From Malaciobacter pacificus (lineage in GTDB: Bacteria; Campylobacterota; Campylobacteria; Campylobacterales; Arcobacteraceae), in assembly GCF_004214795.1 (NCBI RefSeq), contig NZ_CP035928.1, positions 1,426,001 to 1,490,000 of the forward strand: a stretch of DNA of 64,000 nucleotides. Direction: 5' to 3'. The notes under the pieces are model-generated. The model saw nothing but the letters and a program-made list of their open reading frames with translations. It ran no database searches and had not been told where the DNA came from. Shown in pieces: positions 57,513 to 64,000 of this stretch. Made by a program: the position numbers and the translations under genes. Positions within the stretch are counted from its first letter, which is position 1. Every line of letters starts with the position of its first letter.

Positions 57513-59330
57513 CTAGAATGTTGCCTTTAATCCTATATATGCACTTCTTGGAGCTGTTGCATATCCATCAATAGTTTGGTAATCTTTATTAAATATATTG
57601 TCTAGTTTAAAATAAACTTTGTAATCTTTGTTTATATCATAGTTTATAACTGCATTCCATACTGTGTACTTACCTGTTTGTCTTCCACCTTTATTATTAA
57701 AATCATACCTAGTACCAATATAGGTTGCATTTGTGTTAAAATGAAGTTTGTTAATTCCATAATAATCTAAGTTTAATCCAATTTGATTTTTTGGTCTTCT
57801 TCCTAAATCTTGTCCAGATGCATTTTTAGCACTTAAATGTGTATAGTTTAGTGATAGTAAAGTGTCTTTTAAAATATCCTTGCTGTATTTTGCTTCATAA
57901 CCTTTTATTTTAGAAGTTCCAGGAGTATTATTATATCCACTAATTGTACTATCCCAAGAAATTAAATCTTTAACATCATTATTAAAATAAGTAAGTGAAA
58001 TTGATTTATATTCTAATGTTAAATCATAACTTTTTGTTTGTTCTGGTTTAAGATCAAGATTTGAAGCTCCCCAAGGGTTCAACATTTGAATAATATTTGG
58101 TGCATTATAAGCTGTACCATAGTTTCCATTTACAGATAAATCATTTGTAATAAAATATTTTGCTCCAATTTTACCAGTTACTTTTGAACCAAAATTAGAA
58201 TAATCATCTCTTCTTAATGATTGTGTAAAAATGAATTTATCAAAATTGTTTATGTTTGTTAAATAAACAGCTTTATTGCTATTTGATTCTTCATTTGTTG
58301 TAGAAGTTGTTGTTATATAATCTGCTTTATACTCTTCATATGAAGCTCCAATTATCAAATTACTATTTTTTGCATACGAAATATTATCTACTAATTCTGT
58401 AACATATGTTTTTCCATTATATATTTTAACACCAAATGTAGCATCTAAGTTCTCTTTTTGAAAGTCTGATATATCATGATTTAATTTAATTGAGTGATTG
58501 CTTATATTTTTGTTATAAGAAACTGAGTATAAAACAGATTCATTATCTGTTCTTTGAATAGAATCTGGTGCTGAAAAACTGTCATATTCTACAAAAGAGT
58601 TTATGTGATTTACGTTTAATGTTAATCTATCATTATCACTTATATTTAATCCAGCTTTTGCATTTATAGTTGTATTTCTATAACCATCATCTTCATATTG
58701 TCCTAAATCTTTTCCATATACAGCTTGTGCACTAAAACCATCAGTTATAACTCTATTTGCACTAACTTTCACATCATATAGTTTAGTTTTATTTGATACA
58801 GACAAACCATATTTTTTAGTCATAAAACTACCTATTTCTAGATTTGTAGAAATATTTGTTCCTATTTTTGCATCTTTTGTAATAATGTTAATTACACCAG
58901 CTGCTGCATCAGCACCCCAAATACCTGATTGTGCACCTTTGATAACTTCAATTTTTTCAATATCATTAATCATTAAATCAGAAAATGCTACACCTGAAGT
59001 ATTTGAAGGGTCTTGATATCTAACTCCATCAATTAAAACTAAAATTCTTTGAGTGTCCATACCTCTTAAAAATACTGAAGTTGTATTTCCTAAACTTCCA
59101 TTACTTACAAATGACACACCAGCAAGTGTGTTTAATGCATCTGCAATAGTAACAAAGTGTCTCTCTTCAATATCTTCTTTTGTAATAACTTCTACATTTG
59201 ATGTAACATCTTTGATTGATTGTTCTGATTTTGTAGCACTTGTAACTGTAATTTGATCTAACTCATTTGATAGTAGGTTTGTTGCTAATAGAAAGCTTGC
59301 AACTAAGCTTGTAGATAATTTTTTATTCAT
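57513..59330 (-). CDS. btuB: TonB-dependent outer membrane receptor, BtuB-like
   Basis: The 605-residue protein has a signal peptide (about 1-23), a TonB box (DQITVTSATK, about 26-35), a plug domain (about 40-150, with FLRGMDTQRILVLIDGVRYQDP and ADAAAGVINIITKDA) and a 22-strand barrel ending in the aromatic Phe (GLKATF). The plug sequence is close to that of E. coli BtuB, which brings in vitamin B12. The binding protein, ATPase and permease follow without gaps. No cobalamin riboswitch is visible upstream, so control may be by a protein or be constitutive. Confidence 0.85.
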   Translation of the reverse strand: MNKKLSTSLVASFLLATNLLSNELDQITVTSATKSEQSIKDVTSNVEVITKEDIEERHFVTIADALNTLAGVSFVSNGSLGNTTSVFLRGMDTQRILVLIDGVRYQDPSNTSGVAFSDLMINDIEKIEVIKGAQSGIWGADAAAGVINIITKDAKIGTNISTNLEIGSFMTKKYGLSVSNKTKLYDVKVSANRVITDGFSAQAVYGKDLGQYEDDGYRNTTINAKAGLNISDNDRLTLNVNHINSFVEYDSFSAPDSIQRTDNESVLYSVSYNKNISNHSIKLNHDISDFQKENLDATFGVKIYNGKTYVTELVDNISYAKNSNLIIGASYEEYKADYITTTSTTNEESNSNKAVYLTNINNFDKFIFTQSLRRDDYSNFGSKVTGKIGAKYFITNDLSVNGNYGTAYNAPNIIQMLNPWGASNLDLKPEQTKSYDLTLEYKSISLTYFNNDVKDLISWDSTISGYNNTPGTSKIKGYEAKYSKDILKDTLLSLNYTHLSAKNASGQDLGRRPKNQIGLNLDYYGINKLHFNTNATYIGTRYDFNNKGGRQTGKYTVWNAVINYDINKDYKVYFKLDNIFNKDYQTIDGYATAPRSAYIGLKATF

Positions 59331-59353
59331 TTTTATTTATTTTCCTATTTTAT

Positions 59354-59539
59354 TTATATATTATTTGTTGAATATAGTTTGATTGGTTTCAATACTTTTG
59401 ATAATAAAAGTCTAGTAATTTTTGGTATATTTTTAGTTATAATTGATTCAATCATACTAAAAAATGAATGCATTTTTGTATCTGCAGTTGCAGCTAAAAT
59501 ACCAAAAAATGTGAAGTATTTTTTACATTTACTAATCAT
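59354..59539 (-). CDS. Small protein upstream of the btuB-like gene (61 aa)
   Basis: An ATG at 59537-59539 follows a near-perfect Shine-Dalgarno AAAAGGAGGG with six bases spacing, which argues for real translation. The product begins MISKCKKYFTFFGILAATADT, with a short hydrophobic segment, and ends basic. I recognise no family. It lies 23 bp upstream of the btuB-like gene on the same strand. It may be a small membrane protein or a leader ORF affecting expression of the uptake operon. The overlapping plus-strand frame has no such ribosome binding site. Confidence 0.45.
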   Translation of the reverse strand: MISKCKKYFTFFGILAATADTKMHSFFSMIESIITKNIPKITRLLLSKVLKPIKLYSTNNI

Positions 59540-59572
59540 AATTAACCCTCCTTTTCTAAAATTTAATTTTAA

Positions 59573-60283
59573 TTATATATGACAGTTTAATATTGTTTTT
59601 GTTGGATCAACTAAATATTCATAACCTAAATAAGCGATATAAAATCCAAATAAAATTACAAGGATAGAGGCTAATTTAATAAATAAATCCCTTAAATTTG
59701 TTTGTTTAAATAAACCAACAAAAAATCCAACTGAAAATAGTGCTGGTATTGTACTAAGTCCAAATATAAACATAACAACTGCACCCCAAAACATACTACC
59801 TGTACTTGCAGCTGTTATTGCAAAAACATATACAAAACCACAAGGTAAAAGACCATTTAACATACCTAATAGATAAAAACTCATAAGTGATTGAGAACCT
59901 AAAAGTGCCTTAAATGTATTTTGATAAAGTGGTGATTTAGAACATGAGTGTTCTATTTTTGTAAGAAATTTTATTTTTCCTGTTAATGATAGTCCAACAA
60001 GTACCATCAATACCCCAGTAGTAATTAGAAAAATACCACTTGTCATATTATCAAAACTAACAACTCCACCAACAAGCCCAAAAAGAGCTCCTAGTACTGT
60101 ATATGTTGTAACTCTTCCAAAAGAGTATAAAAGATGAGCTATTGCTTGAGTTTGTTTAGACCATTGAGATTTTATTTTAGTACTTGAATAAGCAACTACT
60201 ATTCCACCACACATACCAATACAATGTCCAAATGAACCTAAAAATGCAATTGTAATAATTGAGATAATACTAATAGTTTCCAT
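59573..60283 (-). CDS. SafE/DsbD-like membrane protein, probable copper handling
   Basis: The 236-residue inner-membrane protein has six helices and the motif GHCIGMCGG (residues 20-28), with a second cysteine motif in GLLPCGFVYVF. This is the family annotated as sulfite exporter TauE/SafE family or DsbD_2-like, whose members beside cytochrome oxidase genes help copper delivery. A HSCSK sequence in a loop adds a possible metal site. It starts at the last base of the NosL-like gene, so the two are coupled. Confidence 0.82.
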   Translation of the reverse strand: METISIISIITIAFLGSFGHCIGMCGGIVVAYSSTKIKSQWSKQTQAIAHLLYSFGRVTTYTVLGALFGLVGGVVSFDNMTSGIFLITTGVLMVLVGLSLTGKIKFLTKIEHSCSKSPLYQNTFKALLGSQSLMSFYLLGMLNGLLPCGFVYVFAITAASTGSMFWGAVVMFIFGLSTIPALFSVGFFVGLFKQTNLRDLFIKLASILVILFGFYIAYLGYEYLVDPTKTILNCHI

Positions 60284-60786
60284 TATTTACCTAATAACTC
60301 TTTTTTAATATATGGATTATTTAGGTTTTCACCTCTTAGCATTTTAATTGACATTTCATCATAAGATATAAAACCATCTTGTTTATTTTCATAAGCTCCA
60401 AAACCATATCCCATAGGTGTGATATCATTTCTACTATACCAAGCAGTTCTTCCATCGATATATTTTTTAGTATCTTTAGTCATAACCCAAATTTTTGCAC
60501 TATCTTTAAAAGATTTATTTTGTATCCAATTTACTAATCCTCCATGATCATGGAAAAACCAAGTTTTACCATCTGGGGCAATTACTTGAGATACGTAAGT
60601 CATATTATCAATTATCATACCACAGTCACTATCTTGATATTTACCAAGTATTATTTCTAAAGGTTTTTGTTCTATATTTCCTTCTTTTAATACGACCATT
60701 TGTTTTTGATTAGACATTGATAAAAATATTATAATAATTATAATGATTATTGTTAAAACTGTTAATAAAGGTAAGATTTTTTTCAT
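60283..60786 (-). CDS. NosL-like copper-binding protein
   Basis: The 167-residue protein has an N-terminal hydrophobic helix with eight isoleucines in a row, acting as signal anchor. It then has the NosL family blocks SDCGMIIDNMTYVSQV (Cys55, Met57), DGKTWFFHDHGGLVNWI and DGRTAWYSRNDITPMGYGFGAYENK. NosL binds Cu(I) and helps mature nitrous oxide reductase. No nosZ is in the window, and the coupled SafE-like gene suggests a broader copper delivery role, for example to cytochrome oxidase. The lipoprotein cysteine of many NosL proteins is not seen. Confidence 0.8.
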   Translation of the reverse strand: MKKILPLLTVLTIIIIIIIIFLSMSNQKQMVVLKEGNIEQKPLEIILGKYQDSDCGMIIDNMTYVSQVIAPDGKTWFFHDHGGLVNWIQNKSFKDSAKIWVMTKDTKKYIDGRTAWYSRNDITPMGYGFGAYENKQDGFISYDEMSIKMLRGENLNNPYIKKELLGK

Positions 60787-60841
60787 ATAAACTCCAAGAG
60801 TGTTATTATATTCTCTTGATTATAAATTTTTCATTACAAAT

Positions 60842-60869
60842 AAAAAAAGCCCCACTTAAAAGTGAAGCT
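60842..60869 (-). terminator. Intrinsic terminator of the candidate small RNA
   Basis: On the minus strand AGCTTCACTT pairs with AAGTGGGGCT (with two U-G pairs) and is followed by seven T residues. On the plus strand the wobble positions become mismatches, so the terminator works in the minus direction. The upstream genes on that strand begin only at this point, so it must serve a transcript from the gap itself. Confidence 0.7.
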
Positions 60870-60957
60870 ATTTTTTAATTCTATTTCATAAAAAGTAATC
60901 ATCATAGGTATCTAATTCGTATTTAGTAGTAGGAGAATGTAAAAGTAGATATCCTAT
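60842..60957 (-). ncRNA. Candidate small RNA with anti-Shine-Dalgarno loop
   Basis: The gap between the NosL-like gene and the HAD gene has a complete transcription unit on the minus strand. TATAAT at 60969-60964 is followed six bases later by the start of a 12-bp stem with one bulged A (60946-60958 with 60903-60914). The loop contains ACATTCTCCTACTACT, complementary to a ribosome binding site plus start codon (AGGAG-AATG). A linker and an intrinsic terminator follow (60842-60869). Length about 116 nt, with no ORF. The pairs, box and terminator are seen directly; that it is a trans-acting sRNA is inference. Confidence 0.55.
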
Positions 60958-60963
60958 GGGAGT

Positions 60964-60969
60964 ATTATA
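60964..60969 (-). promoter_or_regulatory. -10 box of the candidate small RNA
   Basis: TATAAT, a perfect -10 element on the minus strand, ending six to seven bases before the predicted RNA start at about 60957. No -35 motif is required in this phylum. Confidence 0.55.
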
Positions 60970-61092
60970 ATAACTGATATTTTAAACTTTTCTTAAATTG
61001 AGACACTTTTTGTCTTATTTTGTAAAATTTAATGTATTTTTATCAATTTAATCATATAATCATCATTAAATAATAAATGAGGAATTAATTTA

Positions 61093-61719
61093 ATGCGTCT
61101 AATTATGTTCGATATGGACGGCACTTTAATAGATAGTGGCTATGCAATTACAAATACAATTAATTATGTTAGAGAAAATTTAGGTTTTGAAAGACTAGAA
61201 AAGAATTTTATTTTAGAAAAAGTAAATGACCCAAATATAAATGCGGCAGAATTTTTTTATGGAACAAAAGAGTTTACTCAAAAGCAAACAAAACTTTTTG
61301 AAGAGTATTACAATAAACACTGTTTAACAGATTTAGTAGTTTATGATGGAATTGCAAAATTGGTTGATGATTTAAAAAGTGATAACTTTACTTTAGCTGT
61401 TGCTACAAATGCAAACTCTGATTATGCTCACAAAATGTTAAATCATGTTGGTTTAGGAGAATATTTTTCTACAATCTTAGGTTACAACAGTGTTAAAAAT
61501 CCCAAGCCACATCCTGAAATGGTAAATAAAATTTTAGATACACACAGTATTAAAAAAGAAAAAGCACAATTAATAGGTGACTCACACAAAGATATAATGG
61601 CTGCAACTAATGCTGGAGTTGATTCTGTACTTGTAAACTGGGGTTTTTCTAACCATGAAGAAAATGCTATAGAAACAGTAGAAGAGTTAGAAAAAAGAAT
61701 TTTTGATAAATTTAAATAG
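61093..61719 (+). CDS. HAD family phosphatase (Gph-like)
   Basis: The 208-residue protein has the HAD motifs DMDGTLIDSG (residues 8-17, with nucleophile Asp), VATNANS (motif II), KPHPEMV (motif III Lys) and IGDSHKDIMAATNAG (motif IV). A helical cap between motifs I and II is of the phosphoglycolate phosphatase/Gph type. The substrate is uncertain. TATAAT about 30 bp upstream of the start, and TGAGGAATT before the ATG, give promoter and ribosome binding site. Confidence 0.9.
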   Translation: MRLIMFDMDGTLIDSGYAITNTINYVRENLGFERLEKNFILEKVNDPNINAAEFFYGTKEFTQKQTKLFEEYYNKHCLTDLVVYDGIAKLVDDLKSDNFTLAVATNANSDYAHKMLNHVGLGEYFSTILGYNSVKNPKPHPEMVNKILDTHSIKKEKAQLIGDSHKDIMAATNAGVDSVLVNWGFSNHEENAIETVEELEKRIFDKFK

Positions 61720-61727
61720 GTCTATAA

Positions 61728-61895
61728 ATGTTTGACAAAATAAAAAATATATTTAAAAAAGAAGAGACTTTTTCTTGTGTAATTTTTGATGGGAAAATGA
61801 TGAAATATATGGATTTAACTCAGAAGCAAATTGATGAAATTAAAAATGATGCAAAATATAAAGATTGGACTATTCAAAAAAAAGAGGAGTGTTAG
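61728..61895 (+). CDS. Small protein of unknown function (55 aa)
   Basis: The ATG lies eight bases after the HAD gene stop, in the same direction. The product reads MFDKIKNIFKKEETFSCVIFDGKM at the start and ends WTIQKKEEC, with a Cys near the middle and at the C-terminus. It is compact and charged, with no membrane segment. It ends overlapping the convergent rsuA gene by four bases. No family is recognised; it is too short for many gene callers. Spacing and composition support it. Confidence 0.6.
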   Translation: MFDKIKNIFKKEETFSCVIFDGKMMKYMDLTQKQIDEIKNDAKYKDWTIQKKEEC

Positions 61896-62572
61896 TCTAA
61901 GTTAATAAACTTATACTCACCCTCTTCTAAGTCTTTAACATCAAACTCACCAAAACTTACTCTATGTAGCTTTATAACTTTATTTCCAACTGCTGCGAAC
62001 ATTCTTTTTACTTGATGATATTTTCCTTCAACTATTTCTAGTCTTACTTTTGTATCATCTATAACTTCAAGAACAGCAGGAAGGCAAGGTTTATCTTCAC
62101 CTTTTAATATAAGTGTTCCACTTGCAAAAATCTCTTTTTCATTTCCATTTAATTCTTGAGCTAAAACTGCTTCATAAACTTTTGGAATATTACTTCTTGG
62201 GCTTGTTAATTTATGATTTAATGCCCCATCATCTGTTAGAATAATTGCACCTGTTGTATCTGCATCTAATCTACCTACAGTAGAAACTTTTGGATTTCTA
62301 TATTGCCATCTTTGAGGTAAAAGGCCATAGATTAATGCTCCTGCATCATCATGTGAGCAAATTGTTCTAGGTGGTTTATTCATAAGTACTACTATTTTTA
62401 AAGGGTCTAAATCTTCACCATTTAGTTTTAAATCAGCATGTTTTACTTTTAGTGCAGGATTTCTAATCTCTTCATCACCAATTGTTAAAGAATTTTTTCT
62501 TAAAAATCTTCTACTATCTTTTCTTGTACAATAACCTAATTGTGACAAAAGTGCATCAACTCTTTTTAGCAT
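61892..62572 (-). CDS. rsuA: RsuA-type 16S rRNA pseudouridine synthase
   Basis: The 226-residue enzyme has an N-terminal S4 RNA-binding domain (about 1-60: RVDALLSQLGYCTRKDSRRFL) and a RluB/RsuA catalytic domain with VSTVGRLDADTTGAIILTDDGAL, which holds the catalytic Asp. KVYEAVLA and EGKYHQVKRMFAAVGNKVIKLHR complete the fold. In E. coli RsuA modifies U516 of 16S rRNA; RluE/F-type targets are alternatives. It is convergent with the small gene at 61728. Confidence 0.88.
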   Translation of the reverse strand: MLKRVDALLSQLGYCTRKDSRRFLRKNSLTIGDEEIRNPALKVKHADLKLNGEDLDPLKIVVLMNKPPRTICSHDDAGALIYGLLPQRWQYRNPKVSTVGRLDADTTGAIILTDDGALNHKLTSPRSNIPKVYEAVLAQELNGNEKEIFASGTLILKGEDKPCLPAVLEVIDDTKVRLEIVEGKYHQVKRMFAAVGNKVIKLHRVSFGEFDVKDLEEGEYKFINLD

Positions 62573-62636
62573 ATATTCTCTTTAAATTTTTTGTGATACT
62601 AACATTTTTTTAGTTAAATTTGGGTATTTTTCATTT

Positions 62637-63308
62637 ATGGAATTACTTGATGAAGAACACAAAATATATCTACTAGATTTAGATAACTATAACTTTCCAA
62701 CACTTAGTATGATGGATGATGATTTAGTTGCCATTGGAGGGGATTTTCATCCTCAAAGACTTATAAATGCCTATGAAAATGGGATTTTCCCTTGGTTTAT
62801 TGATGATTATAACCATATACATTGGTTTAGTCCAAATAAAAGAATGGTTTTAAAACCAAATGAAATGAAAGTATCTAAAAGTTTAAAAAAATCTATCAAA
62901 AATAAAGGCTTTGAAATCAAATCAAATACTAGATTTTCAGATGTTATAAAACAGTGTGGACAAATAAAAAGAAAGCATGAAGATGAAACATGGATAGATG
63001 ATAACTTTATTATAGCTTATACAAATCTCCATCATTTGGGATATGCTCACAGTATTGAGTGTTATCTAGATGGAGAATTAGTTGGTGGATTATATGGTAT
63101 TTTAGTTCATGATAAAATATTTTGTGGTGAAAGTATGTTTGCAAAAGTAAGTGATGCTTCAAAAGTTGCCTTTTATTATCTTTGTAAATGGTGTGAAGAT
63201 AATAATATAGAACTTATTGATTGCCAAGTTTACAATGACCATCTAGCAAGTTTAGGAGCTTATGAAATAACAAGAAATAACTATTTTGACTATTTAATAA
63301 CAAACTAA
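62637..63308 (+). CDS. aat: Leucyl/phenylalanyl-tRNA-protein transferase
   Basis: Aat adds Leu or Phe to the N-terminus of proteins starting with Lys or Arg, marking them for ClpAP (N-degron pathway). The 223-residue protein has the typical start DDDLVAIGGDFHPQRLINAYENGIFPWF, WFSPNKRMVL, DETWIDDNFIIAYTNLHHLGYAHSIE and GGLYGI with FCGESMFAKVSDASKVAF. The ATG at 62637 has weak Shine-Dalgarno sequence. Confidence 0.95.
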   Translation: MELLDEEHKIYLLDLDNYNFPTLSMMDDDLVAIGGDFHPQRLINAYENGIFPWFIDDYNHIHWFSPNKRMVLKPNEMKVSKSLKKSIKNKGFEIKSNTRFSDVIKQCGQIKRKHEDETWIDDNFIIAYTNLHHLGYAHSIECYLDGELVGGLYGILVHDKIFCGESMFAKVSDASKVAFYYLCKWCEDNNIELIDCQVYNDHLASLGAYEITRNNYFDYLITN

Positions 63309-63413
63309 CTATATAGTTTATTAAAAGTAATTTGTTATTACTTAATGCTATATCTGTGCTACTTTAAAATTATAAAATAACTAATATTTACAGTATTTAT
63401 TAGGAGAGTTAGA
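63309..63413. promoter_or_regulatory. Promoter region of the soluble chemoreceptor
   Basis: This 105-bp gap holds a 7-bp hairpin (AAGTAAT/ATTACTT, 63325-63343) that may end the aat transcript weakly. Further on, TAAAATTATAAAATAAC gives a candidate -10 region and AGGAGAG lies before the next ATG. Confidence 0.4.
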
Positions 63414-64000
63414 ATGTTTTTTTCAAGTAAGAAGAAAGATGAAGAGATTGTTTTATTAAAAAGAAAAATTGAAGAGTTAGAAGCAAAACAAAACAATGAA
63501 GATATTATAATTAATGAAATTAATGATGTATTAAAAAAATTTGAAAAAGGTTTTTATGGAATAACAGTTAAGTCAGATAGTCAAAATGAAAAAATTAATC
63601 AAATAAAGAATACATTAAATTCAGCTCTTATAAAAAATGCTGAATTAGCAGATAGAGGGATACAAGCTTTAATCCAGTATGGAAACTCAAATTTTAGTCA
63701 CCCAATTGACACAAATGAATTAAGCGGTAAAATGGGATCTATAGTTTTAGGTGTTAGAGCTTTGGGTGAAACAGTATCTGAGATTTTAGCTTTATTGGAT
63801 GTTACATCTGATGAATTACATAAAGAAGTTGAAGATTTAACAAATGCTTCAAATAATTTAGCAAGTGCTTCAAATCAACAAGCTGCAAATTTAGAAGAAA
63901 CAGCTGCTGCTTTAGAAGAAGTTACAAGTACTATTGTAAATAACACAGAAAACACTCAAAAGATGGCCCAGCTTTCGCAAGAAGTTAATTTGTCTGCTCA
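63414..64000 (+). CDS. Soluble methyl-accepting chemotaxis protein, partial
   Basis: The first 195 residues are in the window and the frame runs off the right edge. It begins with a coiled coil (MFFSSKKKDEEIVLLKRKIEELEA) and shows no membrane helix, then a HAMP/PAS-less helical linker. The chemoreceptor signalling region follows, starting ASNNLASASNQQAANLEETAAALEEVTS, the methylation helix pattern. It is therefore a cytoplasmic receptor, similar to the type sensing internal energy or redox state, or interacting with partner proteins. AGGAGAG precedes the ATG by seven bases. Confidence 0.85.
   Translation, partial: MFFSSKKKDEEIVLLKRKIEELEAKQNNEDIIINEINDVLKKFEKGFYGITVKSDSQNEKINQIKNTLNSALIKNAELADRGIQALIQYGNSNFSHPIDTNELSGKMGSIVLGVRALGETVSEILALLDVTSDELHKEVEDLTNASNNLASASNQQAANLEETAAALEEVTSTIVNNTENTQKMAQLSQEVNLSA

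Follow-up and report, generated by a model that had tools for sequence, protein, structure and literature searches.

Organisation of the locus

The minus strand of positions 60841–60969 of the window (the whole stretch of 64,000 nucleotides of Malaciobacter pacificus DNA that was analysed) carries, in order, a TATAAT box, an 11-bp hairpin with one bulged A, a 31-nt loop, an intrinsic terminator and a tail of seven T residues (Table 1). Six bases separate the TATAAT box from the A at 60957 with which the hairpin begins; the predicted small RNA (sRNA) would have its 5′ end at or near this base and its 3′ end within the T tract. The hairpin is formed by ATAGG(A)TATCTA and TAGATACCTAT, while the terminator reads AGCTTCACTT-TTAA-AAGTGGGGCT and is the sole terminator-like site within 58000–64000. 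A sequence-only reading of this DNA had described an sRNA gene with a correctly spaced TATAAT and a T7-tailed terminator, and both elements are where it placed them. The 12-bp hairpin of that reading does start at the predicted first base, but it comprises eleven pairs plus the bulged A. Wobble pairs, which were said to fix the strand, do so in the terminator, whereas the first hairpin contains no G–U pair. No conserved ORF fits within the sRNA, again as had been noted.

The sRNA gene is bordered on one side by a divergent gene for a HAD-type hydrolase and on the other by a NosL-like gene, followed by a gene for a DsbD_2-type membrane protein. No Pfam or NCBIfam model matches the NosL-like gene, and its label comes from the judgement of the reader and the analyst. 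Two TATAAT boxes between the terminator and the NosL-like gene are likely to be that gene's own promoter or promoters. Elsewhere in the window (57513–59330, minus strand) lies a gene for a TonB-dependent receptor, followed by ABC transporter genes; among NCBIfam models it comes closest to TIGR01779, for the vitamin B12 receptor, though below the cut-off, and Rfam reveals no cobalamin riboswitch.

Table 1. Features of the sRNA locus and its neighbours, in window coordinates
Feature	Position	Strand	Basis or remarks
−10 box TATAAT	60964..60969	−	sequence; −10-like box retained at the same place in relatives
predicted sRNA gene, about 117 nt	60841..60957	−	covariance-model match, genome 1486841–1486957; homologues in at least ten genera
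hairpin 1, 5′ arm ATAGGATATCTA, one bulged A	60946..60957	−	fold and alignment
hairpin 1, 3′ arm TAGATACCTAT	60904..60914	−	fold and alignment
loop seed UUCUCCUACUACUAAAU, anti-Shine–Dalgarno core and extension	60921..60937	−	most constant part across homologues
intrinsic terminator stem-loop, then T7 tail (60847–60841)	60848..60869	−	compensatory changes at 9 of 11 consensus pairs in relatives
degenerate TTAACA-N5-TTAACA operator copy (TTAAGAAAAGTTTAAAA)	60980..60996	−	two mismatches; −39 from hairpin start
two TATAAT boxes between terminator and NosL-like gene	60805..60824	−	similar box retained in relatives
HAD-type hydrolase gene	61093..61719	+	PF13419
NosL-like gene	60283..60786	−	
DsbD_2-type membrane protein gene	59573..60283	−	

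Conservation and covariation

Related DNA was found by BLASTN at the same site in three genomes (G002, G026 and G010), and a search with the NosL-like protein led to a fifth copy, from a Campylobacterales MAG. A first covariance model, built from these four copies and that of the window, matched 49 of 104 Arcobacteraceae genomes at E ≤ 0.01. Six weak matches (L077, L091, L092, L095, L096 and L097) were rejected by eye, each being a terminator at the end of a gene; when 249 genomes of the order were searched, L077 was also the one weak match beyond the family. Further copies, in genera g19, g17, g13, g10, g15 and g9, were added by another model and by reading the site itself, which also gave a plausible additional copy in g16. 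In total, the sRNA is present in about 50 of the 104 family genomes by model and in more by site inspection.

The alignment of 48 copies was fitted to the covariance model, a bias toward the structure; within it 94.1% of stem cells are paired, both sides have changed in 16 of 21 pairs (6.7 expected in shuffles), and shifting the stem partners abolishes pairing. Free of the model, covariation is seen in genus g19, where the stem is GAAAATTAAAA/TTTTAATTTTC in place of ATAGGATATT/AGTATCCTAT. The covariance-model search suggested by the sequence-only reading has in this way returned homologues whose stems and terminator covary. Nothing in Rfam matches at the gathering score, the best sub-threshold match reaching 32.5 bits of the 60 needed; by comparison with the Rfam library, the RNA belongs to a new family.

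In AT-rich DNA a terminator and a TATAAT box might meet by chance, with no gene at the site. Folding of the minus strand, which the sequence-only reading had also suggested, gives a modest signal for the single sequence (z = −2.6, with equally good folds in 4 of 200 shuffles), and promoter-like sites in this DNA are as frequent as in shuffled DNA (32 found, 41 expected). The element is nevertheless judged to be above chance because it is conserved throughout the family with covariation. This refutes a chance pattern, to which we attach a negligible probability. The element has its own promoter and an intrinsic terminator, both conserved in place, and a covarying structure with an unpaired conserved seed; it is near certain to be a real gene.

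The neighbourhood bears on a further explanation, in which the element acts in cis as the 5′ leader of the NosL/TauE-like operon and controls it as an attenuator or a terminated leader. It often lies 5′ of such an operon on the same strand. In one genome (G021, L433) the operator described below stands directly before a DsbD_2/TauE-like gene with no sRNA seen between, and the RNA may stem from that leader; the arrangement suggests that the leader of a copper-regulated gene either gave rise to the RNA or has lost it. The HAD gene adjoins the sRNA in nearly all copies, while the opposite side varies: there is a NosL-like gene and then DsbD_2, DsbD_2 alone (G002 and G026, which retain the RNA without NosL), an unrelated gene (g13) or no NosL/TauE gene downstream (g15). 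The RNA is therefore not bound to one downstream gene. Control in cis is further opposed by the TATAAT boxes between terminator and downstream gene, no alternative anti-terminator pairing was seen, and an attenuator has no need of a conserved anti-Shine–Dalgarno loop. Neither the constant downstream gene nor the common promoter of an attenuator or riboswitch leader was found, and we consider a leader function decidedly unlikely.

The operator and its regulon

Just 5′ of the −10 box, nearly every sRNA promoter beyond g11 and the window's genome carries an exact direct repeat, TTAACA-N5-TTAACA. It is found at −38 to −46 from the hairpin start in g3, g6, g10, g13, g17, g19 and two g11 copies, and the chance of an exact repeat is 0.00025 per shuffled 70-mer. 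The exceptions, L348 and L357, have the operator with one mismatch each, and the sRNA copies of g9, g15 and g16 also carry the TTAACA repeat. In the window the operator, with its two mismatches, is not significant by itself, and the repeat is not recognisable in the sRNA promoters of most of g11. These promoters (e.g. L050–L068) have in its place a different sequence that is likewise strongly conserved, (G)GACAAATTTTATCTTATTTTAATA, where another regulator may bind.

When sought at the right distance from a −10 box in 12 genomes, the operator occurs at one to five sites per genome, compared with none or one for the reversed pattern. The genes behind it include the PCu(A)C copper chaperone in five genomes (PF04314 confirmed for one, the other four assigned by evident similarity), NosL (PF05573), ExbB, TonB, TonB-dependent receptors, PepSY_TM, a Campylobacter-type porin, an EF-hand protein and a few others. 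One of these receptors has the TonB-copper model TIGR01778 as its best match, below the cut-off. The sRNA gene itself usually stands beside NosL-like and DsbD_2/TauE-like genes, and in most genera its promoter has the operator in common with genes of the copper-uptake type (PCu(A)C, NosL and the TonB system). As copper chaperones, PCu(A)C and NosL serve oxidases and nitrous oxide reductase (PMC7558416). In C. jejuni the PCu(A)C/Sco operon has a role in cbb3 oxidase assembly (PMC8267372), and one copper-starvation operon of Bordetella encodes a PepSY_TM protein and a TonB-dependent receptor that serve copper oxidases (PMC12914433, PMC13038864). Since its partner genes are copper-related, the operator is read as marking a copper-limitation regulon, in which copper would be the signal and the site would serve activation rather than repression. 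The porin, and receptors without an assigned substrate, count against the copper reading.

The spacing of the operator is that of OmpR/PhoB-type regulators. The site of HP1043/HsrA, TTTAAG-N5-TTTAAG, is spaced like TTAACA-N5-TTAACA (PMC5253667), but the family-wide site is TTAACA and the regulon is copper-related, and HP1043/HsrA is not claimed as the regulator.

The loop seed and its predicted pairing with ccoN

The constant element in the loop of the first hairpin is (A)AUYCUCCUACUACUAA, in which the core, CUCCU, is near-invariant. Across the predicted structures of 53 copies this seed is exposed, with a mean P(unpaired) of 0.83 compared with 0.47 elsewhere. The sequence-only reading had taken the complement of the loop to be AGGAG-AATG, a Shine–Dalgarno (SD) sequence plus start codon; this is unusable, having one base of spacing, and the conserved complement is instead an SD with the bases 5′ of it (UAGUAGUAGGAGG). 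Exact matches to CTCCTACTACTAA elsewhere than in the sRNA are mostly coding. In many g11 copies and in G002 the terminator loop is often UUUUCCCUC or CUCCC, and this C-rich, unpaired loop could be a second seed.

Across homologues the core varies less than the sequence on either side, as might be expected of a conserved copper-regulon sRNA whose loop binds a protein or the ribosome and not specific mRNAs; the core, as CCUCCU, resembles the 3′ end of 16S rRNA. Against this, the flank extension ACUACUAA has likewise been kept by most species, and it pairs with the SDs of mRNAs, which leaves such a role highly improbable.

The mRNA on which attention falls is that of ccoN, identified by its best model, TIGR00780, and encoding the copper-containing subunit of the cbb3 oxidase. 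In the window's genome the loop is complementary to the ccoN SD at nine of nine positions. The ccoN SD is TTAGTAGGAGG or TTTTGTAGGAGG in nearly all sRNA-bearing genomes; the region around it reads AATTAGTAGGAGGAGATTGATG in most of them and TTTTGTAGGAGGAAATTGATG in one g11 clade. Among the genomes read, SDs of the TTTAGGAGG type occur in g2, g5, g7 and g9, and other SDs lacking GTAGG in g4 and g16. Some changes in the loop have a counterpart in ccoN. The loop CUCCUACAA of G010, G066 and G067 pairs with ccoN UUGUAGGAG, and that of G073, CUCCUACAAAAUU, matches ccoN AAUUUUGUAGGAG at 15 of 15 positions; within g9, the loops CUCCUAAU (G025) and CUCCUAAA (G008) each fit their own ccoN, AUUAGGAG and UUUAGGAG respectively. 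The match is broken in other genomes (G082, G062/G071 and G009). Over 40 distinct pairs, cognate duplexes of loop and ccoN are stronger than permuted ones (p = 0.004, relatedness uncontrolled), and a stricter run-length score gives p = 0.05, again with relatedness uncontrolled; the two permutation statistics, duplex energy and run length, thus differ in strength. The pairing of the loop with the ccoN SD appears to be conserved and partly covarying, in that it tracks some of the lineage-specific loop changes.

The operator is also found near ccoN. In 25 of 30 genomes (L264–L293) its reverse, TGTTAA-N5-TGTTAA, lies about 95–128 nt 5′ of the gene, compared with 2% by chance, which suggests that the regulator of TTAACA-N5-TTAACA controls the cbb3 oxidase gene directly. 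The regulator and the sRNA therefore appear to act on one gene.

Other candidate targets

Possible targets in the window's genome were ranked against a background of 20 × 20 kb of genome plus the window, in which the sampled ORF starts are approximate. By duplex energy ccoN falls only in the top 8% of this gene sample, and pqqC comes first. The pqqC SD (G000:C1:376697, L099) is complementary to the sRNA loop at 17 of 17 positions, and its duplex energy of −36.3 kcal/mol is unmatched among 379 sampled genes; the SD duplex of a chemoreceptor gene is in the top 0.3%. The exact ten-mer GTAGTAGGAG occurs seven times in this genome: once in the sRNA, once in a further sRNA-like element, twice as part of an SD (pqqC and the chemoreceptor gene) and three times at seemingly coding sites.

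These matches raise the possibility that the trans-acting sRNA has several main targets, or one other than ccoN (for example pqqC, fdhA, cytochrome c peroxidase or a chemoreceptor), and that ccoN matches the loop simply through having a strong, generic SD. CUCCU is able to pair with many SDs, and ccoN need not be the main target; in some species of g11, fdhA and cytochrome genes have TAGTAGGAG SDs, and such SDs are present too in genomes where the sRNA was not found. The ccoN match, however, is conserved across the genera that keep the loop, and none of the alternatives was seen to be so; moreover, where a genus has no sRNA, or an sRNA without CUCCUAC in its loop, the SD of ccoN is not extended. 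We consider this possibility rather unlikely. Messenger RNAs with an extended matching SD, such as pqqC in the window's genome, are probable additional targets, and PQQ synthesis may be a species-specific one.

Two further candidates were set aside. nosZ was rejected as a conserved target, GTAGGAGG being confined to nosZ of the g11 type and absent from other genera. Five TACAAAATTTATTAGTAGGAG SDs in the window's genome, at first sight a target regulon, are ends of one repeated element with identical upstream sequence and were dropped. Each of the five copies of this element (G000:C1 91954, 420572, 662969, 970830 and 1659962; L113, L160, L163, L165 and L166) ends in TTATTAGTAGGAG, and within a few bases there follows the ATG of a gene unrelated to the other four. 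The element is a probable insertion sequence, and would seem either to insert at ribosome-binding sites or to supply them.

The second sRNA-like element lies on the minus strand at about G000:C1 986420–986560 (L102, L240), between genes of the HAD and LOG types. It consists of a TATAAT, an CUCCUACUACUAAAAUAC stretch as in the sRNA, and a strong terminator, in that order, and is possibly a sibling sRNA with a common seed.

A possible copper-sparing circuit

The central proposal of the sequence-only reading, an independent minus-strand sRNA gene whose loop pairs with SD regions, is supported by the family-wide conservation, the covariation of the stems, the exposed core of the loop and the retention of the RNA when either neighbouring gene changes; the observation itself is confirmed. 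The operator with its proposed copper link and the connection with ccoN are additions to that reading. In the best explanation that we can offer, and one for which we put the chances at about even, the RNA is a trans-acting copper-limitation sRNA, co-induced with copper-acquisition genes, that represses the translation of ccoN. When copper is short, a regulator binding TTAACA-N5-TTAACA would switch on expression of the sRNA together with the copper-acquisition genes. The exposed anti-Shine–Dalgarno loop (CUCCUAC...) would then pair with the ribosome-binding site of ccoN and block its translation, and scarce copper would not be spent on the cbb3 oxidase. The most economical account would be a feed-forward circuit, in which the regulator induces the genes of copper uptake and delivery as well as the sRNA, and the sRNA blocks the main copper enzyme. 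The fuller proposition, that this is a copper-sparing sRNA, retained throughout one family of Campylobacterota, that is induced in copper limitation with import and chaperone genes and silences the cbb3 oxidase through the ccoN ribosome-binding site, is put forward tentatively, at slightly less than an even chance.

Relation to known systems and significance

The iron-sparing sRNAs RyhB, PrrF and FsrA are induced with metal-uptake genes, pair with mRNAs and reduce metal-using enzymes (PMC9294342). Their metal-sparing logic is the one proposed here, which would make the present RNA a copper counterpart of RyhB; they respond, however, to iron through a Fur box, whereas copper (as proposed) and a TTAACA direct repeat are involved here, and no sequence relation is seen in Rfam. 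In Helicobacter pylori, whose cells have neither Hfq nor ProQ, NikS (HPnc4160) is a metal-responsive trans-acting sRNA that represses mRNAs via their leaders (PMC8322730). Compared by description, NikS resembles the RNA proposed here as a metal-linked trans-acting sRNA of Campylobacterota, but it is repressed by NikR with nickel and its targets are outer-membrane and virulence genes. RepG of H. pylori has a C/U-rich terminator loop, a likeness to the UUUUCCCUC terminator loop of several homologues of the present sRNA. RepG, too, is a trans-acting sRNA that pairs with mRNA leaders (PMC8322730). Its binding site is a G-repeat in the tlpB leader, whereas the present RNA carries its constant CUCCUAC in the loop of hairpin 1 and is predicted to target an SD. 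Non-coding RNAs of Campylobacterota have been described as species-limited, 6S RNA excepted (PMC3847290), in contrast to this sRNA with its range of at least ten genera.

Post-transcriptional control by copper is known from Bordetella, where the upstream ORF CruR governs a TonB-dependent copper importer (PMC9426467). CruR differs in being a cis-acting nascent peptide that works with Rho termination, not an sRNA. The same 2022 paper described such mechanisms for copper as yet to be characterised (PMC9426467). Metal-linked sRNAs exist for iron, manganese and nickel, and a 2022 review reports none for copper while predicting one (PMC9294342). No earlier report of a copper-linked sRNA was found in the open-access literature, a scope in which one in subscription papers could be missed. 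If the copper reading holds, the sRNA described here would extend the metal-sparing kind to copper.

The question can be put directly to the test: the RNA is defined, the operator is rare and names the members of its regulon, and the predicted target is a base-paired one. If the proposed circuit is true, Campylobacterota would gain a family-wide sRNA besides 6S, the regulation of their main respiratory oxidase would be tied to copper supply, and the regulator of TTAACA-N5-TTAACA would be a new sensor of copper limitation.
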